DNA of 64,000 bases, from assembly GCF_900176595.1 (NCBI RefSeq), contig NZ_LT838813.1, positions 2,308,001 through 2,372,000 of the forward strand, written 5' to 3'. Below are positions 16,974 through 62,099 of the stretch, in pieces. Every line of letters starts with the position of its first letter. Position 1 is the first letter of the stretch. Source of the DNA: Aquiflexum balticum DSM 16537 (GTDB lineage: Bacteria; Bacteroidota; Bacteroidia; Cytophagales; Cyclobacteriaceae). The position numbers and the translations under genes are program-made. The notes beneath the pieces are model-generated. The model saw only the letters and a program-made list of their open reading frames with translations. It was not told the DNA's origin and did no database searches.

Positions 16974-17357
16974 ATGCGACTTAAAAATATCAGTTTGAGC
17001 TATGGGATGAGGATTTTCAAAGCTTTATCAGAAGAGCCTAGGGTCAGAATTCTCCACTTGTTGCAACAAAATAAAGAGCTTTCAATTTCAGACTTGGAAC
17101 ATATTTTGGATTTTACCCAGACCAAAACAAGCAGACATCTCATTTATCTCAAAAATTCAGGATTGTTGGGGAGTCGCAGGGTGGACCAATGGATTTTTTA
17201 TTATATTCTCGAGGAGGCACAGGAAATCATTCAGCAGATTTTTAAGTTTATTCAGAAGGATGCCAACCTTATCAAGGATCAGGAAGTTTACCAGATACTC
17301 CATTCCAATAGGGAGCTTGCCATCAATAAAATACAGAATAATCCCTACCGAAAATAA
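16974..17357 (+). CDS. ArsR-family winged-helix regulator
   Basis: The 127-residue product has the ArsR/SmtB winged helix: MRIFKALSEEPRVRILHLL, then ELSISDLEHIL as helix 2, TQTKTSRHLIYLKNSGLL as the recognition helix and a wing RRVDQWIFYY. No cysteine metal site is visible, so metal sensing is doubtful. It lies seven bases upstream of a HAD phosphatase gene on the same strand, which suggests cotranscription; the target operon is unknown. Confidence 0.85.
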   Translation: MRLKNISLSYGMRIFKALSEEPRVRILHLLQQNKELSISDLEHILDFTQTKTSRHLIYLKNSGLLGSRRVDQWIFYYILEEAQEIIQQIFKFIQKDANLIKDQEVYQILHSNRELAINKIQNNPYRK

Positions 17358-17364
17358 TTTCACC

Positions 17365-18060
17365 TTGAAAACATACCAACACCTCTTCTTCGACCTGGAC
17401 CATACCCTTTGGGATTATGATAAAAACGTGCAGGAATCACTTTCCGAACTTTTTGAAATTTTCCAACTTCAAAATTTCGGGATCTTGGATTTTAAAACAT
17501 TTTTGGATGCATTTTACCAGGTCAATTTTAAATTATGGGCTATGTATGATGTGGGTAAACTTGATAAAATCAGGCTAAGAGAAGTCCGATTTAAACTCAT
17601 TTTCGAAAAAGCCGGAGCTAGGGATAATGCTGTCCCCAAAGAAATGGAAGATGACTTTATGCATAGGACATCTTCCAAGCCACATTTGCTCCCCTATTCC
17701 AAAGAGATTTTGGACTATCTCAGGCCCAATTATCGGATGCATATCATCACCAATGGTTTCAACGAAAGTCAGGCCCTGAAGATGAAATCTTCCGGGCTTA
17801 CTCCCTACTTTGATTTTGTAGTTACTTCCGAGACAACGGGACATAAAAAACCCGATCCCCGGATTTTCAAATATCTTTTGGACAAATTATCCGTGAATGC
17901 CACGGATTGCATTATGATAGGCGACAATCCTAATTCTGATATTCTGGGTGCTATCAGATCCAATATAGATCAGGTTTTTTTTGACCCACATGAAAAAGGA
18001 ATAGACCATAAGCCTACCCATACCATTAGGCATTTAAAGGAACTGGAAGGGATTTTTTGA
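17365..18060 (+). CDS. YjjG-like HAD phosphatase (noncanonical nucleotidase)
   Basis: A HAD-superfamily hydrolase of 231 residues if translation starts at the TTG at 17365; a more upstream start would overlap the ArsR gene by ~100 bases and add sequence unlike the family. Motif I is FFDLDHTLWD (Asp10, Asp12), motif II ITNG, motif III GHKKPDP and motif IV IGDNPNSDILGA. The HTLWD form is typical of YjjG-type dUMP/pyrimidine 5'-nucleotidases that clear noncanonical nucleotides. Cytoplasmic, and probably cotranscribed with the ArsR gene. Confidence 0.82.
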   Translation: MKTYQHLFFDLDHTLWDYDKNVQESLSELFEIFQLQNFGILDFKTFLDAFYQVNFKLWAMYDVGKLDKIRLREVRFKLIFEKAGARDNAVPKEMEDDFMHRTSSKPHLLPYSKEILDYLRPNYRMHIITNGFNESQALKMKSSGLTPYFDFVVTSETTGHKKPDPRIFKYLLDKLSVNATDCIMIGDNPNSDILGAIRSNIDQVFFDPHEKGIDHKPTHTIRHLKELEGIF

Positions 18061-18064
18061 TATT

Positions 18065-18101
18065 TAAGACAAAAGACAAAAGACATGAGATTTGAGACTG
18101 G
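18065..18101 (+). repeat. 7-nt-period AGAnnnn array, locus A
   Basis: AGA occurs at 18067, 18074, 18081, 18088 and 18095, i.e. five times at exactly 7-nt spacing, starting seven bases after the stop codon of the HAD gene and on its mRNA strand. Confidence 0.8.
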
Positions 18102-18305
18102 GTTTTATCTAAACCTTGTAGGTATGTTTTAATTGGGAGGTTAAGGGTTCGTTAGGATCTTCTTTGCAAACTTTTTTCCTTACAATCTTTCTACTTAATA
18201 AAATTCCCAATTCCTTACTTTCACATCCCAAATCTATTTCTGGCAGGTTTTCCCAATGGGATGCCTTATATTTGGGGTATCAGAAACTTATAAACTCAAA
18301 TAAAT

Positions 18306-19940
18306 ATGCTTAAAGGATTTTTCAATATTCCGGAACCGATCAATGAACCGGTAAAAAGTTACGCCCCAGGTTCACCGGAGAGGTCTGAGCTTCAGGCAAT
18401 GTTAAAAGAATTCAGGGCACAGCAAGTCGATGTACCTATGTATATCGGGAGTGAAGAAGTGAGAACGGGCAACAAAAAGCCCATGAACCCGCCACATGAC
18501 CACCAACATCTTTTGGGTCATTTCCATGAAGGAGATGCCTCCCATGTGGAGCAGGCAATCAATTCAGCCATGGGTGCAAAGCACGCTTGGGAATCAATGG
18601 AATGGGAACAAAGGGCTGCTATTTTCCTGAAAGCCGCAGACTTGTTGGCGGGTCCTTACCGGGCAAAGATCAATGCAGCTACCATGTTGGGGCAATCCAA
18701 AAATGCTTTTCAGGCTGAAATTGATGCTGCCTGTGAATTCATTGACTTTTTGCGCTTCAATGTAAAATATATGGTGGAAATCTATTCCCAACAGCCTCCT
18801 GTTTCTGGAAATGGCGTTTGGAACAGAGTGGAGCAAAGGCCATTGGAAGGTTTCGTATTTGCCTTGACTCCTTTCAATTTTACTGCTATTGCAGGTAACC
18901 TGCCTACTTCCGCTGCCTTGATGGGAAATACGGTGGTTTGGAAGCCTGCCCATACTCAGATCTATTCTGCCAATATATTGATGCAGGTTTTCAAAGAAGC
19001 CGGTGTACCGGATGGTGTGATCAACCTGATTTATGTAGATGGACCCACCACTGGAAAAATTATTTTCAACCATCCTGATTTTGCAGGAATCCATTTCACA
19101 GGTTCTACAGGTGTTTTCCAACATATCTGGAAAACAATCGGTGAGAATATTTTCAAATACAAGTCTTATCCGAGGATTGTAGGTGAGACGGGTGGAAAAG
19201 ATTTTGTGATTGCCCATAAATCAGCCAATCCAAAAGCTGTTGCTGTGGGTCTTTCTAGAGGAGCTTTTGAATATCAAGGTCAAAAGTGTTCTGCAGCGTC
19301 AAGGGCTTATATCCCCTCCAATATGTGGGCTGAGGTCAAAAAATATCTGTTGGAAGATCTGGCTTCCATGAAAATGGGCCCGACGGAGGATTTTACCAAT
19401 TTTATCAATGCAGTGATTGATGAAAAAGCTTTTGATAAAATCTCCAATTATATCTCTGAAGCTAAGAAAGCAGATGGAGTGGAAATCATTTCCGGCGGAA
19501 ATTTTGACAAATCCAAAGGTTACTTTATCGAACCAACAGTCATTGTAACTCAAGACCCCATGTACACTACGATGTGTGAGGAGATTTTTGGTCCTGTTTT
19601 GACGATATATGTGTATCAAGCTGAGCATTTTGAAGAAGCGTTGGAATTGGTAGATCAGACTTCCCCTTATGCTTTGACGGGCGCAGTATTCTCCCAAGAT
19701 CGCTATGCCATAGAATTGGCTACCAAGAAACTGAGAAATGCGGCTGGTAACTTCTATATCAATGACAAGCCGACAGGTGCAGTAGTAGGGCAGCAGCCAT
19801 TTGGTGGTGCTAGGGCATCAGGTACCAATGACAAGGCCGGATCCATGATCAACTTACTCCGATGGGTATCTCCAAGGACGATTAAGGAAACATTTGTATC
19901 GCCTGTGGATTATAGGTATCCGTTTTTGGGAGAGGATTGA
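18306..19940 (+). CDS. pruA: L-glutamate gamma-semialdehyde dehydrogenase (delta-1-pyrroline-5-carboxylate dehydrogenase)
   Basis: The 544-residue product is an aldehyde dehydrogenase of the P5C dehydrogenase (RocA/PruA) class. It oxidises glutamate semialdehyde to glutamate with NAD+, the last step of proline and ornithine degradation. The catalytic Cys is in YQGQKCSAASR (Cys328), the general base in ETGGKDF (Glu294), and LTPFNFTAIAGNLP and GGARASGTNDKAG are typical of the class. Length matches the monofunctional enzyme. rocD, which makes the same semialdehyde from ornithine, lies 4 kb downstream. The proline dehydrogenase gene is not in the window. Confidence 0.95.
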   Translation: MLKGFFNIPEPINEPVKSYAPGSPERSELQAMLKEFRAQQVDVPMYIGSEEVRTGNKKPMNPPHDHQHLLGHFHEGDASHVEQAINSAMGAKHAWESMEWEQRAAIFLKAADLLAGPYRAKINAATMLGQSKNAFQAEIDAACEFIDFLRFNVKYMVEIYSQQPPVSGNGVWNRVEQRPLEGFVFALTPFNFTAIAGNLPTSAALMGNTVVWKPAHTQIYSANILMQVFKEAGVPDGVINLIYVDGPTTGKIIFNHPDFAGIHFTGSTGVFQHIWKTIGENIFKYKSYPRIVGETGGKDFVIAHKSANPKAVAVGLSRGAFEYQGQKCSAASRAYIPSNMWAEVKKYLLEDLASMKMGPTEDFTNFINAVIDEKAFDKISNYISEAKKADGVEIISGGNFDKSKGYFIEPTVIVTQDPMYTTMCEEIFGPVLTIYVYQAEHFEEALELVDQTSPYALTGAVFSQDRYAIELATKKLRNAAGNFYINDKPTGAVVGQQPFGGARASGTNDKAGSMINLLRWVSPRTIKETFVSPVDYRYPFLGED

Positions 19941-19954
19941 GGAGAGAGTTTATT

Positions 19955-20018
19955 CAGAAGCGAGAAGCGAGAGCCGAGAAGTTAGACTTAAGACACAAGA
20001 AGCAAGAACCAAGAGCTA
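19955..20018 (+). repeat. 7-nt-period AGAnnnn array, locus B (nine units)
   Basis: AGA lies at 19956, 19963, 19970, 19977, 19984, 19991, 19998, 20005 and 20012 without a register slip. The other four bases of each unit vary. The array starts 15 bases after the pruA stop, on its mRNA strand, and precedes a terminator hairpin. Confidence 0.9.
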
Positions 20019-20055
20019 AAGCTTTCCCCGAATATCGGGAAATCAAAAACCAAGT

Positions 20056-20093
20056 GACCTTTGGGGTTTATAAAACCTCAAAGGTCTTTTTTT
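20056..20093 (+). terminator. pruA terminator
   Basis: A 14-bp stem GACCTTTGGGGTTT / AAACCTCAAAGGTC (one G-T wobble) with a 3-base loop and seven T residues. Nearly the same sequence recurs at 21361-21395. Confidence 0.9.
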
Positions 20094-23081: not shown

Positions 23082-23324
23082 TTATCTAATTACAATGAAT
23101 CCTTTGTCCTGAGCTTCTTTCAATACAGCAGTGATGCCTTTTTTATTGATAGTTCTTAGGGCTTTGGTACAAACTTTCAACGTGATCCAAGCATCCTCTT
23201 CAGGAACATAGAAGCTTTTTTTGTGCAAGTTTGGATAAAACTTACGCTTGGTCTTGTTGTTCGCGTGCGATACATTATTTCCTACTTGAGGCCTTTTACC
23301 GGTAATGTCACAAACTTTTGCCAT
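23082..23324 (-). CDS. rpmB: 50S ribosomal protein L28
   Basis: The 80-residue product starts MAKVCDITGKRPQVGNNVSH and has WITLKVCTKALRTI, the diagnostic L28 pattern. The open frame extends further upstream to 23465, but that part is not L28-like and covers a heptamer repeat, so the ATG at 23324 is the start. First gene of the rpmB-rpmG-DUF4295 operon. Confidence 0.97.
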   Translation of the reverse strand: MAKVCDITGKRPQVGNNVSHANNKTKRKFYPNLHKKSFYVPEEDAWITLKVCTKALRTINKKGITAVLKEAQDKGFIVIR

Positions 23325-23436
23325 GATATATGATCGTATTATTAAAGACGTTTTTCCAATTGAGTTTGCAAATATCGGACTTTTACCTGAATTACCAAGG
23401 GCAGGTTTCAAAAATATTCCTGAAAGTTTTTCAATG

Positions 23437-23485
23437 TAAGACATGAGATGTGAGACTTGAGACACAAGATAAGATATTTAAGACC
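23437..23485 (+). repeat. 7-nt-period AGAnnnn array, locus C
   Basis: AGA lies at 23439, 23446, 23453, 23460, 23467 and 23481; only the unit expected at 23474 is lost. It is in the spacer upstream of rpmB. Confidence 0.85.
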
Positions 23486-23513
23486 TTTGAAACGAGCGAT
23501 AAAGGTAAAGTTT

Positions 23514-23548
23514 GTACCAAGTACATTGAACCAAGTACCAAGAATTGA
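23514..23548 (+). repeat. 7-nt-period GTACCAA array, locus C2
   Basis: GTACCAA, GTACATT, GAACCAA, GTACCAA and GAATTGA begin at 23514, 23521, 23528, 23535 and 23542. The same 7-nt period as locus C, 29 bases away, but with another core sequence. Confidence 0.8.
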
Positions 23549-34559: not shown

Positions 34560-34934
34560 TTACAATTCTTCCTCTCTTTCCAACATCAAAATTGAATGCT
34601 GCGGAACAATAAAATATTTTTCTCCTTCATAAATCACTTCATAAGATCCATTTAACAGAAAAATGGCAAGATCCCCTTCTTTGGCTTGGAGAGGAATATA
34701 CTTGATGTTCTCATCTCTATCTTTCCATGGTTCGTTGTCTTCCATAGGAGAAGGTATGGGATATCCCGGACCTGTTTTGATGATGTAGCCTTGCTGTACT
34801 TTTTCTTTCTCCTGAACTCCAGGAGGGAGATATAAGCCAGTAGCTGTTTTTTCATCCGCCTTTCTGAGTTTAATCAAAACACGGTCACCTACTATAATGA
34901 GTTTCTTCAGTTTATTGTCAGGAGTGAGTTTCAT
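34560..34934 (-). CDS. GroES-like co-chaperone
   Basis: A 124-residue protein with the Cpn10 fold: KLIIVGDRVLIKLRKADEKT at the start, then GLYLPPGVQEKEKVQQGYIIKTGPGYP and YEGEKYFIVPQHSIL at the end. It is longer than classical GroES (~95), with an insert NEPWKDRDENIKYIPLQ. Family knowledge: Bacteroidota have a divergent GroES-family protein beside the normal groES-groEL pair. It lies downstream of dnaK on the same strand, which suggests a stress role, though a terminator and two repeat arrays separate them. Confidence 0.82.
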   Translation of the reverse strand: MKLTPDNKLKKLIIVGDRVLIKLRKADEKTATGLYLPPGVQEKEKVQQGYIIKTGPGYPIPSPMEDNEPWKDRDENIKYIPLQAKEGDLAIFLLNGSYEVIYEGEKYFIVPQHSILMLEREEEL

Positions 34935-34940
34935 TTTTTT

Positions 34941-34978
34941 AGACTGTTAGATGCGAGAACCGAGACTTAGGCTTGAGT
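34941..34978 (+). repeat. 7-nt-period AGAnnnn array, locus D
   Basis: AGA at 34949, 34956 and 34963 (plus 34941, eight bases earlier), beginning just upstream of the GroES-like start. It is the inverse of locus F about 65 bases away, so the two could pair. Confidence 0.65.
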
Positions 34979-35045: not shown

Positions 35046-35080
35046 TATCTATTCTCTCGTTTCTCGCCTCTCGCATCTCA
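35046..35080 (-). repeat. 7-nt-period AGAnnnn array, locus F
   Basis: On the plus strand TCT lies at 35048, 35055, 35062, 35069 and 35076, i.e. AGAnnnn on the minus strand. It immediately follows the dnaK terminator in the dnaK transcript direction. Confidence 0.85.
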
Positions 35081-35137: not shown

Positions 35138-37060
35138 TTATTTTTTGTCCTCGGACACTTCTTCGTAATCTACATCGGAGACACCATCACCTGCTTCAGC
35201 TGATGATCCTGCATCTGCACTTGCTCCTGCATCAGGTCCTGGCTGTGCTCCTTGGGTAGAGTTGTACATTTCCTGAGAAGCACCTTCCCAAGCTTTATTC
35301 AAAGTTTCCATAGCCGCCTCAATTCCAGGCAGATCCTGAGACTGATGTGCTTTTTTCAGAGTTTCCAAAGCAGATGAAATATTTGCTTTATTGGAATCGG
35401 AAAGTTTGTCACCATATTCTTTAAGTTGCTTTTCAGTTTGGAAAACAAGACTGTCTGCTTGGTTCAACTTTTCGATCTTCTCTTTCTCGGCTTTATCAGA
35501 AACGGCATTAGCCTCAGCTTCTTTTTTCATTCTTTCGATATCGTCCTGAGACAAACCTGAAGAAGCTTCAATCTTGATTTTCTGCTCTTTACCGGTTCCC
35601 TTATCCTTTGCAGATACATTTAGGATACCATTCGCATCAATATCGAAAGTCACCTCTATCTGTGGAACTCCTCTCTGTGCAGGTGGAATATCGCTCAGTT
35701 GGAATCTTCCGATTGACCTGTTGTCCTTGGCCAAAGGTCTTTCTCCCTGTAATACATGGATATCAACCGCAGGCTGATTGTCCGCAGCAGTAGAGAAAAC
35801 TTCTGATTTCTTACTTGGAATAGTTGTATTAGACTCGATCAATTTGGTGAAAACACCGCCCATTGTTTCGATACCTAGAGATAGAGGCGTTACATCAAGT
35901 AACAACACATCTTTCACTTCTCCGGTCAAAACGCCACCTTGGATAGCTGCACCAATGGCCACAACCTCGTCAGGGTTAACACCTTTTGAAGGCTTCTTAC
36001 CGAAGAATTTTTCAACTTCTTCCTGGATTTTTGGAATTCTTGTAGATCCACCCACCAAGATTACCTCATCGATGTCTGATGGAGACAATCCGGCGTCCTT
36101 TAGTGCCTTTATACAGGGATCCATGGATCTTTTTATCAAATCTTCTGACAATTGTTCAAACTTAGCTCTGCTCAAGGTTCTCACAAGGTGTTTCGGACCT
36201 GTTTGTGTTGCTGTGATATAAGGAAGGTTGATCTCAGTAGAACTGGAACTTGACAATTCAATTTTAGCTTTTTCAGCGGCTTCTTTCAATCGCTGAAGAG
36301 CCATTGGGTCTTGCCTTAGATCGATTTGTTCTTCGGATTTAAATTCATCTGCAAGCCAATTGATTATTTTCTGATCAAAGTCATCACCGCCTAAGTGAAC
36401 ATCACCATTGGTGGATTTTACCTCAAATACTCCATCGCCCAATTCAAGCACAGAAACGTCAAATGTACCACCACCGAGGTCATACACTGCGATTTTCATG
36501 TCTTTATTTTTCTTGTCCATACCATAAGCCAAGGCAGCTGCAGTAGGCTCGTTGATGATTCTTTTCACTTCCAAACCTGCAATCTGTCCGGCCTCTTTGG
36601 TGGCCTGACGCTCAGCATCATTGAAGTAGGCAGGTACTGTGATCACAGCTTCGGTTACCGTTTGACCCAAGAAATCTTCGGCTGTGCTCTTCATTTTCTG
36701 AAGAATCATAGCGGAAAGCTCCTGTGGGGTATAGGCCCTGTCACCGATTTTGATGGTCACTGTATCGTTGGGACCTTGTTCGACTTTGTAAGAGGCATGT
36801 TTTTTTTCTGAAGAAACTTCAGAGAATTTTTTACCCATGAATCTTTTGACTGAAGAAACAGTATTTGCAGGATTGGTGATAGCCTGACGCTTCGCAGGGT
36901 CACCTACTTTCCTTTCACCGTTACCATTGTCCAAAAACGCTACAATGGAAGGAGTGGTTCTTCTTCCTTCGCTGTTTTGGATGACTACTGGTTCACTGCC
37001 TTCCATTACGGCAACGCATGAGTTGGTAGTACCTAAGTCTATACCTATGATTTTTCCCAT
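35138..37060 (-). CDS. dnaK: molecular chaperone DnaK (Hsp70)
   Basis: The 640-residue Hsp70 has all landmarks: [62 protein letters not shown] and [11 protein letters not shown] in the ATPase, then the substrate domain and a Gly/Ala/Asp-rich tail ending EEVSEDKK. It folds and protects proteins with DnaJ and GrpE, whose genes are not here. A sigma-54-like sequence lies ~50-70 bases upstream. Confidence 0.98.
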
Positions 37061-43903: not shown

Positions 43904-43957
43904 ACTGCCTACTGACCACTGAGACTGCATACTGAAAACTGCCCACTGTTTCACTGG
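43904..43957 (+). repeat. 7-nt-period ACTGnnn array, locus G
   Basis: ACTG lies at 43904, 43911, 43918, 43924, 43931, 43938, 43945 and 43953. Seven-base spacing throughout except for one 6 and one 8. Core differs from the AGA arrays but period and position (between genes) agree. Confidence 0.8.
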
Positions 43958-47651: not shown

Positions 47652-48776
47652 ATGAAATTTATTGTTTCTTCTTCTGCTCTTTTAAAGCAGCTTTCAACGA
47701 TCAACGGTGTAGTTACCACCAATCCTGTAGTTCCGATTTTGGAAAATTTCCTTTTTGAGATCAAAGGCGGAAAGCTCACCATCACTGCTTCCGATTTGCA
47801 GACATCCATGATTACCGAGATTGATGTAGAAGCCAAAGAAGATGGAAACATCGCTGTTCCTGCAAAGATCCTTATTGAAACATTAAAGAATCTTCCTGAG
47901 CAACCAGTTACATTTAGCATTGATCCTGATACTTACAGCATTGAGATAAGTTCTGACAATGGTAGGTATAAATTGGCCGGTGAGAATGCCACTGATTTCC
48001 CAAAAATCCCGACTGTAAGCAATGCTACAGTGGTGGACATGTCCACGGAGATATTGAGCAGTGCGATCAGCAATACCATATTTGCCACAAGCAACGATGA
48101 ATTGAGACCTGCCATGACGGGTGTTTATATCAACCTTAGCAGTACGAATACTACTTTTGTTGCCACAGACGGACACAGATTGATCAGGTACAGAAGGGTG
48201 GATGTTGCTTCACAAGATGATGCAAGCATCATCATTCCAAGAAAAGCACTCAACTTATTGAAATCGACGCTGCCATCCGAAAATGTACCCGTAGCGGTTG
48301 AATTCAACAGTTCTAATGCCTATTTCAAATTCAACAGTATCAAAATGATCTGTAGATTGATAGATGAGAGATTCCCCGATTACGAAAATGTAATTCCAGT
48401 GGACAATCCAAATCATATGACGATCGACAGGTTGGAGTTTTTGGGTTCATTGAGAAGGATTGCTATCTACGCCAACAAAACCACCCATCAGGTTAGATTG
48501 AAATTGACCGGAAGTGAATTACAGATATCAGCGGAGGATCTTGATTTCTCCAACGAAGCCAATGAAAGATTGTCCTGTGACCATGATGGAGAGGATATTG
48601 AGATTGGTTTCAATGCCAAGTTCTTGGTGGAAATGTTGAACAACCTTTCTTCCAAAGAAGTGACCTTAAAGTTCAGCGCTCCAAACCGTGCCGGATTGAT
48701 AGTTCCATCTGATAAATCCGACAATGAAGATATCCTGATGTTGGTGATGCCGGTGATGTTGAATAATTATGTTTGA
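47652..48776 (+). CDS. dnaN: DNA polymerase III beta subunit (sliding clamp)
   Basis: The 374-residue clamp begins MKFIVSSSALLKQLSTINGV at 47652 (an ORF extension from 47574 is unlike the family). It forms the dimeric ring that tethers replicative polymerase to DNA. Conserved stretches include FVATDGHRLIRYR and the C-terminal VMPVMLNN, the clamp-closing end. dnaA and other origin genes are not adjacent. It ends with a heptamer array and a terminator. Confidence 0.97.
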   Translation: MKFIVSSSALLKQLSTINGVVTTNPVVPILENFLFEIKGGKLTITASDLQTSMITEIDVEAKEDGNIAVPAKILIETLKNLPEQPVTFSIDPDTYSIEISSDNGRYKLAGENATDFPKIPTVSNATVVDMSTEILSSAISNTIFATSNDELRPAMTGVYINLSSTNTTFVATDGHRLIRYRRVDVASQDDASIIIPRKALNLLKSTLPSENVPVAVEFNSSNAYFKFNSIKMICRLIDERFPDYENVIPVDNPNHMTIDRLEFLGSLRRIAIYANKTTHQVRLKLTGSELQISAEDLDFSNEANERLSCDHDGEDIEIGFNAKFLVEMLNNLSSKEVTLKFSAPNRAGLIVPSDKSDNEDILMLVMPVMLNNYV

Positions 48777-48782
48777 TTTTGA

Positions 48783-48812
48783 GGAGACGTTAGACGCAAG
48801 ACATAAGAAAAG
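48783..48812 (+). repeat. 7-nt-period AGAnnnn array, locus E
   Basis: AGA lies at 48785, 48792, 48799 and 48806, starting nine bases after the dnaN stop on the mRNA strand and running directly into the terminator. Confidence 0.75.
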
Positions 48813-57405: not shown

Positions 57406-57442
57406 ACTTCCGTCTCCTGTCTTCCGTCTTCCGTCTTCTTCC
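57406..57442 (-). repeat. 7-nt-period AGAC array, locus H
   Basis: On the plus strand GTCT lies at 57412, 57419, 57426 and 57433, so AGAC repeats every 7 bases on the minus strand. It is about 70 bases after the dehydratase stop in its transcript direction. Confidence 0.75.
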
Positions 57443-57507: not shown

Positions 57508-59223
57508 TTAATGTGAATCTCTTTTGACCTCAGGCCCTGAAGCTCCTTTGAGAAAATCAAAATCAACTCCCTCATGGGCCTGGGTCACATTTTGGATAAA
57601 CATATTGACATATCCCCTTTCATAGCCCAAGTTCAAAGGCTTGAAATTGGATCTCCGCTTTTCCAGTTCTTCTTCAGATACTTCTAAATTTAGTGATCTA
57701 TTGGGTACATCCAAGACTATCCAATCCCCATTCTCCACCAAAGCCAGATTACCACCTACGGCGGATTCAGGAGAAACGTGCAGAACGACAGTTCCATAAC
57801 CTGTTCCACTCATTCTGCCATCGGATATCCTGACCATATCTTTGACTCCCTGCTGGATGATTTTCATGGGCAACTGCATATTTCCAACTTCGGGCATTCC
57901 GGGATAGCCTCTTGGCCCCACATTTTTCAAAACCAAGACTGAATCAGGAGTAACATCCAGATCAGGATCATCCAACCTTTTCTTATAATCATCAATGTCC
58001 TCAAAGACTACCGCTTGACCTCGGTGGGTCAATAATGAAGGCGTCGCAGCTGAAGGTTTGAGTACAGCACCTTCCGGGCAAAGATTACCTTTTAGCACGG
58101 CAATTCCTGATTCAGGTTTGAAGGGCTTTTCCAAGGTACCTATCAGGTTTCTGTCCCAACATTCAGCGTTGAGAATATTTTCAGAAAGATTTTTACCGTT
58201 GGCGGTTTTGGTATCCAAATGCAAGAGTGAAGCAATTTCCTTCATCACTGCCGGAAGACCGCCTGCGTAGAAAAGGTCTTCTACAAAGTTTTCCCCAGAA
58301 GGCTGCACATTAGCAATCAAAGGGACATGAGAGGAGAATTTGTCAAAATCATCAATATTAAGTTCAATACCCATCCTTCCTGCTATGGCCAACAAATGAA
58401 GGATGAAATTGGTAGAACCACCCAATGCTGCATTCACCATAATGGCATTTTCAAAGGATTTTCGGGTGAGTATATCACTCATTTTCAGGTCTTCCTTGAC
58501 CATTTCCACTATTCTGATCCCTGACATATGGGCCAAAACCTTTCTTCTGGAATCAGCTGCAGGGATGGTGGCATTGTCGGGAAGCGCAAGACCCAAAGAT
58601 TCCACCATGGCAGCCATAGTGGAGGCAGTCCCCATTGGTGCACAATGACCCTGCGACCGTGCCATGGCAGCCTCAGCTGCTGTGAAATCTTCTTGTGATA
58701 ATTCTCCTTTTTTGAATTCTTCAGCAAATCGCCAAAGATCGGAAGTGCCGATTTTTCTTCCTTTGAATCTTCCGGCAAGCATTGGGCCTCCTGATACCAC
58801 AATCGTGGGCAAGTTGACACTGGCGGCACCCATGACTAGTGATGGGGTAGTTTTGTCACAACCGCACATCAGGACTACGCCGTCCATGGGATTGGCACGG
58901 ATGCTTTCTTCCACATCCATACTGGCCAGGTTTCTGAAAAGCATGGCGGTAGGTTTGATGGAACATTCTCCCAAGGACATCACAGGGAACTCCAGTGGAA
59001 ATCCGCCTGCTTCCCAAATCCCCCTTTTCAAAGCTTCTGCCAAATCCCTAAAATGGGCATTGCAGGGAGTGAGTTCGGAGTAGGTATTGCAGATACCGAT
59101 GACCGGTCTACCTTCAAAAAGGTGGTGGGGAAATCCTTGATTTTTCATCCAGGCCCGGTAAATAAAGCCGTCCTTTCCTTTACGGCCAAACCATTCCTGG
59201 CTTCGTAATTTCTTTTCTTCCAT
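57508..59223 (-). CDS. IlvD/Edd-family sugar-acid dehydratase (arabinonate/xylonate-type)
   Basis: A 571-residue Fe-S dehydratase close to L-arabinonate and D-xylonate dehydratases: it starts with the KLRSQEWFGRKGKDGF/YRAWMKNQGFPHHLF pattern and ends FLKGASG...RDSH, which is typical of that branch rather than of amino-acid IlvD. Cluster cysteines are probably Cys54 (TPCN), Cys122 (CGCDKTTPS) and Cys194 (GHCAPMGT). It removes water from a sugar acid to give a 2-keto-3-deoxy acid. The following SDR supports a non-phosphorylating sugar-acid pathway; aldolase and lactonase genes are not visible. Confidence 0.9.
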   Translation of the reverse strand: MEEKKLRSQEWFGRKGKDGFIYRAWMKNQGFPHHLFEGRPVIGICNTYSELTPCNAHFRDLAEALKRGIWEAGGFPLEFPVMSLGECSIKPTAMLFRNLASMDVEESIRANPMDGVVLMCGCDKTTPSLVMGAASVNLPTIVVSGGPMLAGRFKGRKIGTSDLWRFAEEFKKGELSQEDFTAAEAAMARSQGHCAPMGTASTMAAMVESLGLALPDNATIPAADSRRKVLAHMSGIRIVEMVKEDLKMSDILTRKSFENAIMVNAALGGSTNFILHLLAIAGRMGIELNIDDFDKFSSHVPLIANVQPSGENFVEDLFYAGGLPAVMKEIASLLHLDTKTANGKNLSENILNAECWDRNLIGTLEKPFKPESGIAVLKGNLCPEGAVLKPSAATPSLLTHRGQAVVFEDIDDYKKRLDDPDLDVTPDSVLVLKNVGPRGYPGMPEVGNMQLPMKIIQQGVKDMVRISDGRMSGTGYGTVVLHVSPESAVGGNLALVENGDWIVLDVPNRSLNLEVSEEELEKRRSNFKPLNLGYERGYVNMFIQNVTQAHEGVDFDFLKGASGPEVKRDSH

Positions 59224-60758: not shown

Positions 60759-60797
60759 AAATCTAAATTCTAATATCTAAATTCTTAATTTCTAATC
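60759..60797 (-). repeat. 7-nt-period TAGA array, locus I
   Basis: On the plus strand TCT lies at 60762, 60769, 60776, 60783 and 60791 (last spacing 8), mostly as TCTAAAT. On the minus strand this is TTAGAnn repeated, and the first unit overlaps the murA stop codon. Confidence 0.75.
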
Positions 60798-62099
60798 CAC
60801 CCTAACAATATCCGCTCCCAAAGCATTCAACCTTTGGTCTATGTACTGATATCCACGGTCAATCTGCTCGATATTGTCAATGACCGATGTTCCCTCAGCC
60901 GAAAGTGCGGCAATCAACAAAGAAACCCCCGCCCTGATATCGGGCGAAGTCATGCGGATACCTCTTAGCGGATATTTCCTGTCTAATCCGATCACTGTAG
61001 CACGGTGCGGATCGCATAGAATGATCTGTGCACCCATATCAATCAACTTATCTACAAAGAACAGGCGGCTTTCAAACATCTTCTGATGTACCAAAACAGT
61101 TCCTTTGGCCTGGGTCGCGGTAACCAAAACGATGCTCAAAAGGTCAGGCGTAAATCCCGGCCAAATTGCATCGGCAACGGTCAGGATCGAACCATCGATA
61201 AAAGTCTCTATTTCATAATGCTTTTGCGCAGGGATAAAGATGTCATCTCCCCTGAATTCCAATTTGATGCCCATTCTTCGGAATGTATCCGGGATAATTC
61301 CAAGCCTATGGATTTGGGCATCCTTGATAGTGATTTCGGATTGGGTCATTGCCGCAAGACCAATAAATGACCCGATTTCAATCATATCTGGCAGCAGCGT
61401 ATGTTCTGTGCCTTTCAGGGATTTCACACCCTCAATGTTCAACAGGTTGGAACCTATTCCGGTGATTTTTGCTCCCATGCGATTCAGAATGTCACATAGT
61501 TGTTGAAGGTATGGCTCACAGGCCGCATTGTAGATGGTTGTTTTGCCTTCTGCCATTACCGCAGCCATAACAATGTTTGCCGTACCCGTTACCGAGGCTT
61601 CGTCAAGGAGCATATAAGCCCCTTTCAGGTTTTTGCCATCGATGTGGTAAATCTCTTTTTTCTTGTCGTAATGGAATTCAGCCCCGAGTTTTTGGAATCC
61701 GGTAAAATGGGTGTCCATTCTTCTTCGTCCGATTTTATCCCCTCCGGGCTTTGATAATCTGCCTGTCCCGAATCTTGCCAATAATGGCCCTAGGATCATC
61801 ACAGAACCTCTTAAAGAAGAAGCTTTGGTCAAAAAATCATCTGTTTCCAGATATTGAAGATTGATCTGATCGGCCTGGAAAGTATAAGATTCAGGACCGA
61901 TTTTATTCACTTTCACGCCCATGTCAGCCAACAGTTCAATCAGTTTATTGACATCACGGATATTGGGGATTTTGTGGATGGTAACTTTGCCGGAGGTTAA
62001 AAGTACCGCGCATAGGATTTGCAAGGCCTCATTTTTCGCTCCTTGAGGTGTGATTTCACCTTTGAGCTTCAGGCCTCCTTTTACTCTGAATGATGACAT
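60792..62099 (-). CDS. murA: UDP-N-acetylglucosamine 1-carboxyvinyltransferase
   Basis: The 435-residue EPSP-synthase-fold enzyme makes the first committed step of peptidoglycan synthesis (enolpyruvyl transfer from PEP to UDP-GlcNAc). It starts MSSFRVKGGLKLKGEITPQG and has AKNEALQI and GSVMILGPLLARFG. In the active-site loop SKPGGDKIGRRRMDTHFTGF the residue equal to E. coli Cys115 is Asp121; this is known in several groups and goes with fosfomycin resistance. The ATG directly follows the DUF4290 stop. Confidence 0.97.
   Translation of the reverse strand: MSSFRVKGGLKLKGEITPQGAKNEALQILCAVLLTSGKVTIHKIPNIRDVNKLIELLADMGVKVNKIGPESYTFQADQINLQYLETDDFLTKASSLRGSVMILGPLLARFGTGRLSKPGGDKIGRRRMDTHFTGFQKLGAEFHYDKKKEIYHIDGKNLKGAYMLLDEASVTGTANIVMAAVMAEGKTTIYNAACEPYLQQLCDILNRMGAKITGIGSNLLNIEGVKSLKGTEHTLLPDMIEIGSFIGLAAMTQSEITIKDAQIHRLGIIPDTFRRMGIKLEFRGDDIFIPAQKHYEIETFIDGSILTVADAIWPGFTPDLLSIVLVTATQAKGTVLVHQKMFESRLFFVDKLIDMGAQIILCDPHRATVIGLDRKYPLRGIRMTSPDIRAGVSLLIAALSAEGTSVIDNIEQIDRGYQYIDQRLNALGADIVRVD

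Follow-up and report, generated by a model that had tools for sequence, protein, structure and literature searches.

Does the AGA that recurs at every seventh base behind several genes of Aquiflexum balticum belong to the mRNA ends of these genes or to the DNA between them? The question is raised by a stretch of 64,000 nucleotides (the window), in which eight loci of the form AGAnnnn had been named by an initial annotation. All eight are present in the sequence. They are given here with two hairpins located behind locus B.

18067-18097, + strand: locus A, AGA heptad array of five units, 6 nt behind the stop codon of a HAD gene (17317-18060, +).
19956-20014, + strand: locus B, unbroken AGA heptad array of nine units, 15 nt behind the stop codon of pruA (18306-19940, +).
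20020-20046, + strand: small hairpin of the TTCCCCGA..TCGGGAA kind directly 3' of array B, seen by eye and present also in A. lacus.
20056-20093, + strand: hairpin ACCTTTGGGGTT..AACCTCAAAGGT plus a T-run, the likely pruA terminator (terminator prediction; gaps of relatives).
23439-23483, + strand: AGA heptad array between divergent genes, five strict units (23439-23469) or six with one skip (to 23483); the small ORF 23082-23444 beside it may not be a real gene.
34941-34965, + strand: short AGA array, four AGA with one 8-nt step (three strict units, 34949-34965), left arm of an inward pair; it lies 6 nt upstream of the start of the gene 34560-34934 (-), to which it is antisense.
35048-35078, - strand: AGA heptad array of five units, 59 nt behind the stop codon of the gene 35138-37060 (-), right arm of the inward pair.
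48785-48808, + strand: AGA heptad array of four units, 8 nt behind the stop codon of the gene 47652-48776 (+), followed by a predicted terminator.
57413-57436, - strand: AGA heptad array of four units, GACGGAA form, 71 nt behind the stop codon of the gene 57508-59223 (-).
60762-60785, - strand: AGA heptad array of four units, TAGATTT-like form, 6 nt behind the stop codon of the gene 60792-62099 (-).

Six of the loci had been placed on the mRNA strand. Their strand is that of the preceding gene, but the array at 35048-35078 sits beyond a predicted intrinsic terminator. The arrays at 23439 and 34941 are found at start-codon borders and are antisense to the near gene. Heptads of other composition are also found in the window: ACTGnnn/CAGTnnn at 43904-43941, and GTACCAA at 23512-23542, about 30 nt behind the AGA array 23439-23483. 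Hairpins of the ACCTTYGRGGTT..AACCTCAAAGGT kind, often followed by T, recur behind genes (20056-20093 in the window, many gaps of this genome, G000, and of the related genome G395) and are also found at the Algoriphagus loci L093, L094, L096 and L153; they form a repeated terminator-like family.

The excess of arrays over chance is confirmed. The window contains 7 strict runs with four or more AGA units spaced by 7 nt, whereas 100 dinucleotide shuffles give 0.01 on average and never more than 1; for five or more units, the counts are 4 and 0. On the contig of 5,987,095 bases, the pattern of five AGA at 7-nt spacing gives 282 plus 316 overlapping matches. The genome was sampled as 60 evenly spaced 20-kb stretches and the window (1,264,000 bases, 21% of the genome). 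Gene calls came from a home-made codon-bias caller, which is reliable for stop codons and less so for start codons. A chain is defined as at least four AGA at 7-nt steps, one skip being permitted. The sample includes 76 chains: 64 in two-sided gaps, 8 at stretch edges and 4 within called genes. With 64 chains per 170 kb of sampled gaps versus 4 per 1.04 Mb of coding sequence, the arrays do lie behind or between genes rather than inside them, as had been proposed; shuffled gaps give a mean of 0.4 and a maximum of 2 (20 dinucleotide shuffles). AGA chains at other periods number 2 to 9 in the sample. For runs of at least five units of any trinucleotide (1,264,000 bases), period 7 gives 126, of which 52 are AGA/TCT; its harmonic, period 14, gives 38, and periods 5, 6 and 8-13 give 1 to 9. 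The longest AGA runs reach 19 units. Among the 139 distinct units of AGA arrays, GGG is found in none of the 40 commonest. AGAnnnn arrays are thus dispersed genome-wide and mostly intergenic.

One group of arrays inside genes was excluded from these statistics. It belongs to 16 paralogous + strand genes (G000:C1:1519499-1592428, L171-L174) that we take to be histidine-kinase-like, with a HEIQNPLNFVNNFSEV segment. One or two in-frame AGA heptad arrays are carried by 14 of the 16 (16 arrays in total, most about 620-700 nt before the stop codon); they probably derive from one capture that spread via duplication.

The intergenic arrays are found on the stop side in 41 cases and on the start side in 23 (n = 64), so that the excess behind stop codons is real. 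The rule first given for them, behind stops and on the mRNA strand, describes the 41 stop-facing and sense arrays but not the 23 start-side ones; an outward geometry covers both. Whether the border is a stop or a start, the AGA strand nearly always begins close to it and points away from the gene: in this unbiased sample, its 5' end is nearer the gene border than its 3' end in 61 of the 64 arrays (p = 5e-15; 39/41 on the stop side, 22/23 on the start side), versus a mean of 32 and a maximum of 47 outward arrays when placed at random in identical gaps (2000 trials). When every fetched stretch of the genome is included, 80/87 are outward. Stop-side arrays adjoin the gene, 24/41 starting no more than 15 nt from the stop codon; start-side arrays are farther from the gene. 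Base composition at gene borders was considered as a trivial cause of the polarity and rejected, the purine share on the outward strand being 0.50-0.52 in 446 heptad-free gaps of at least 150 bp.

When both orientations are found in one gap, they point inward (17/17 gaps in G000 and G395, 12/12 in the genomes G001, G413, G351 and G300; 29/29 in total). A single orientation is found in 39/48 array-bearing gaps. The arms within G351 pairs are more alike than arms of other loci (0.69 vs 0.51, p = 1.8e-5); in Aquiflexum pairs this likeness is weak (p = 0.044). At one G351 locus (L269), the arms are fully complementary, with a hairpin in the middle.

These data bear on the interpretation given initially, i.e. 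that an RNA-binding protein reads the heptad register in the 3' UTR, or that the arrays stabilise 3' ends. Most arrays are indeed stop-facing and sense, and AGA varies less than nnnn in orthologous arrays (a confounded comparison, see below). Against this, the gene's own strand would read UCU at the 23 start borders, 8 of the 55 stop-facing arrays are behind a predicted terminator (8 others are before one and 39 have none predicted on either side), and at some of the same sites the sister species carries other heptad alphabets. The outward rule is independent of gene direction and hence is not an mRNA rule. An mRNA feature was therefore not upheld, and a signal of this kind is hardly credible; the arrays resemble a known class of repeats in a strand-polar form rather than a signal at mRNA ends.

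Seven-base periodicity is not limited to AGA. A motif-free scan for lag-7 self-similarity (threshold 16/21) in the gaps of G000 and G395 gives 114 and 44 regions, respectively (other lags, 1-12; harmonic lag 14, 75 and 21). The alphabets recognized by eye include CAGTnnn, CGATGAC, CCAAGTA, GGAAGTT, GGATGAA, GACGGAA and TAGATTT. In non-AGA regions (81 at threshold 15, ties removed), the outward strand has G>C in 68/77 and is purine-rich in 58/75; at threshold 16, the G>C strand is outward in 50/59 and the purine strand in 46/58. The outward share is near one half at control lags 4, 5, 6, 10, 11, 12, 13 and 15; some bias at lag 8 (47/71, p = 0.0086) and lag 9 (39/62, p = 0.056) goes against the cleanest reading. 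It is well supported that AGAnnnn is one alphabet among a larger set of dispersed degenerate seven-base arrays filling Aquiflexum intergenic DNA, whose G-rich or purine strand leads, read 5' to 3', away from the gene closest to it. Both Aquiflexum species also have a dispersed repeat of another kind, CCTTGTCATGTCGAC..GGAGACATCT, located between heptad arrays (e.g. the G000 gaps 3119500-3119823 and 3127380-3127805).

The array pattern is found, very unevenly, in 84/395 genomes of a class-wide draw and in 22/39 close relatives. A purine before AGA was tried as a fixed part of the motif and rejected: this asymmetric pattern, used in the class-wide draw, often matched about equally well as its control, so that the purine does not belong stably to the motif in the class as a whole. 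The pattern counted on the contig and in the close relatives reads the same when reversed, so a reversed-pattern control carries no information for it. Genomes rich in matches were chosen and six were searched; polarity was tested in four (G277 and G401 were left out). In these genomes, picked for many arrays, outward arrays number 29/33 (G001), 13/13 (G413), 15/17 (G351) and 19/20 (G300). The counts leave aside arrays lacking a two-sided gap (8, 5, 5 and 1, respectively) or inside called genes (13, which are redundant hits, 1, 1 and 0). The unit of G300 is almost always AAGAGTG, at no fewer than 28 sites among the places listed; this heptamer was absent from all 24 other genera examined in the family to which G300 belongs. 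The G300 arrays are almost perfect repeats and young. GTGA directly precedes the first AGA in 16/21 of them; their flanks otherwise have nothing notable in common (best 10-mer in 3/21). The 3' flanks of these sites could be read in 3 of 6 relatives, and an array was found in none of those 3.

The nearest named relative according to pruA is Aquiflexum lacus (98%), and G395 is very probably this species, of the same genus as G000. In G395, 37/39 AGA arrays are outward. For 150 orthologous gaps of the two genomes, AGA arrays are found in both in 13 cases, in G000 only in 5, in G395 only in 2 and in neither in 130. Some arrays are nearly unchanged between the sister species, variable bases included (2192149, 3122285, 777266). 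At 617896, an inward pair is found in both, but the units and the middle differ. At 103235 and 104354, different alphabets directly follow the same stop codon, at 3404742 the sister species has CAGT units where G000 has AGA, and at 3119500 AAGTACC units run in phase into shared AGA units. The suggestion of old repeat decay is partly right, some arrays being unchanged and others replaced.

Loci A and B were compared more widely. At locus A, where both species carry arrays, the gap spans 245 nt here and 327 nt in A. lacus; the six other relatives measured lack arrays and have gaps of 69-110 nt. Arrays at locus B are found here, in A. lacus and in Mariniradius saccharolyticus and are absent from the other six of eight relatives; the stem of the pruA terminator is 2-8 nt behind the stop codon in three of these six versus 116 nt here. 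The arrays at loci A and B are therefore net insertions. In gap-free orthologous arrays, differences are found at 26/246 AGA positions, 65/264 nnnn positions and 72/272 flanking positions (AGA versus nnnn, p = 4e-5, some loci being entered from both species). The lower variability of AGA could reflect selection on AGA; in-phase replacement would give the same pattern. An earlier count (5/252 AGA versus 87/262 nnnn positions differing) was discarded, being biased by the array definition. The shared part is gene-distal at pruA, at 3119500 and in the second array of 3127380, and gene-proximal at 685539; these loci are too few to give a direction of growth.

Polarity at both borders, inward pairs, other alphabets, net insertions and change of alphabet point to a process at the DNA level and against a register code in the 3' UTR. 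The reading preferred here, to which a probability of roughly 0.4 is given, is that the arrays are products of DNA synthesis, existing arrays being copied onto 3' ends that leave a gene border, with slippage afterwards. A 3' end leaving the border, broken or stalled, would pair over a few bases with a heptad array already present and copy some of its units before gap closure; units would then be gained or lost through slippage. Copying from other arrays could bring one heptamer to many sites, allow a switch of alphabet and keep the seven-base phase when units change. Extension of both ends, or folding back of one, might give inward-facing and sometimes complementary pairs. Genes would bound the process because insertions into genes would be lost. 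We infer the broken or stalled end, the template switching and the absence of function; no break, copying event or enzyme was observed for this model.

Ku is absent from array-rich genomes and present in 8/39 relatives, and RVT_1 is absent from G414, a genome with 111 pattern matches; neither is thus required, and both were excluded as necessary partners. Independently of this, eight RVT_1 open frames (431-433 aa, seven equal-scoring) are located at G000:C1:1198816-1209291 and 3213031-3256115; they represent a reverse-transcriptase element that has multiplied recently, perhaps as a group II intron. Some observations do not favour the copying model. The close abutment of arrays to stop codons needs an extra assumption, e.g. 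repeated rounds ending at the gene border; the lower variability of AGA columns could mean selection; the gene-proximal position of the conserved part at 685539 is against growth at the gene side; and the likeness of paired arms is weak in Aquiflexum. A bolder form, decidedly improbable, has gene borders written by a polar telomere-like DNA extension: a lineage-specific template would supply purine-rich heptads to 3' ends leaving genes, at either gene end and in several phyla, and intergenic DNA would thereby be rebuilt continually from gene edges inward.

The main rival of the copying model replaces directed synthesis by a selective filter, which is rather unlikely. Both orientations would arise, and the survivors would be those whose C/U-rich, G-poor strand is transcribed into the gene. 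Rho prefers C-rich, G-poor RNA. Resembling a Rho loading site, such RNA would cut short antisense or read-through transcription where the gene begins or ends, while purine RNA would leave the gene. That an outward G>C is the best predictor for non-AGA alphabets (68/77) and that stop borders are favoured (41 vs 23) are consistent with such a filter, as is the same rule among published G-rich heptamers (accessible part of PMC4692102). However, the density per base is no higher in convergent gaps (12 arrays in 26 kb) than in codirectional ones (45 in 103 kb), the young and perfect arrays of G300 are already outward in 19/20, and UCU arrays near start codons would sit in the leader of the gene itself.

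Replication slippage, making and losing seven-base arrays that are retained where harmless, would reduce the arrays to ordinary microsatellites. Mrazek reportedly found in 2007 (as cited in PMC4692102) that heptamers are over-represented among bacterial SSRs, the cause proposed being the contact length of the polymerase. Such an over-representation, unit numbers changing in 7-nt steps and the nearly perfect repeats of G300 fit this account; neither the strand polarity, nor the alphabet switch at one site, nor the recurrence of one heptamer at no fewer than 28 unlinked sites of a single lineage is explained by it. Simple slippage had already been held insufficient, a judgement that is right for this last reason rather than the one given. 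Polarity and shared alphabets weigh against slippage as the whole account, which is unlikely; as one step it is likely. It is very improbable that the arrays mark the termini of a small mobile element or form the arms of lengthened terminator hairpins, for all that the inward pairs, the complementary arms around the hairpin of L269 and the hairpins of the CCTGCCCC..GGAGCCAA kind behind some arrays recall such structures. The last are found in just 8/72 3' flanks of Aquiflexum arrays, most array-bearing gaps have a single orientation, and no Rfam family is found in the window at gathering scores. No shared element body was found behind the Aquiflexum arrays (no 8-mer in more than 10 of 72 3' flanks). 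A MITE- or REP-type element was rejected, no conserved body or inverted termini being common to the copies (72 Aquiflexum 3' flanks; 21 G300 flanks).

The strand rule is independent of gene direction and holds across unrelated heptamers, in several Bacteroidia and, as published, in Xanthomonas and Nostoc; this points to some general process, polar in nature, that acts on the intergenic DNA of bacteria. Were its cause mutational, directional DNA would be added at gene borders through a route of repair or copying; were it selection, there would be a rule limiting which sequences can be transcribed into genes.

Several known repeats resemble the arrays. STRR heptanucleotide tandem repeats are found in heterocystous cyanobacteria; compared by description, they are likewise dispersed tandem arrays, with other units. 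Three heptanucleotide repeats of Calothrix are cited in PMC4692102 (accessible part). Heptamers are not singled out in the accessible part of a survey of tandem repeats (PMC4060949). TAACTGA direct repeats are reported from Beggiatoaceae, Cyanobacteria and five Bacteroidetes in the accessible part of PMC4679880, whose authors consider a spread lacking a known mechanism; in the BOGUAY genome these are mostly just upstream of start codons, forward, and were read as translational control. Like AGAnnnn, they are intergenic heptamers, patchy across phyla, with mixed heptamers in some gaps, but they have one fixed unit on the start-codon side, whereas the units here are AGAnnnn and 41/64 arrays are stop-facing. 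In the open-access literature (subscription papers being mostly outside that search), neither AGAnnnn arrays nor the outward rule was found described for Bacteroidota. The form is thus new, as had been remarked, but two publications precede it, PMC4679880 for heptamers in five Bacteroidetes and PMC4692102 for where G-rich heptamers are placed, both as far as the accessible parts go.

The closest likeness is to the heptameric repeats GGGAATC and GGGGA(C/T)T of Xanthomonas and Nostoc. According to the accessible part of PMC4692102, they are mostly intergenic, chromosome-wide tandem arrays, found between the same genes in related species with varying length and sequence; their G-rich strand is the coding one behind ORFs and the non-coding one before ORFs, and their function is left open. 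The same placement is found here for the AGA strand (61/64) and for the G>C strand of other alphabets (68/77). The published repeats have a single G-tract unit (GGG/GGGG), prefer four units and form quadruplexes in vitro, whereas Aquiflexum arrays have several alphabets lacking G-tracts, are strongly degenerate around a fixed core, form inward pairs and change alphabet at one site. Since a like location rule is in print, they are to be regarded, as far as that source goes, as a known kind of repeat in a new form, AGAnnnn.
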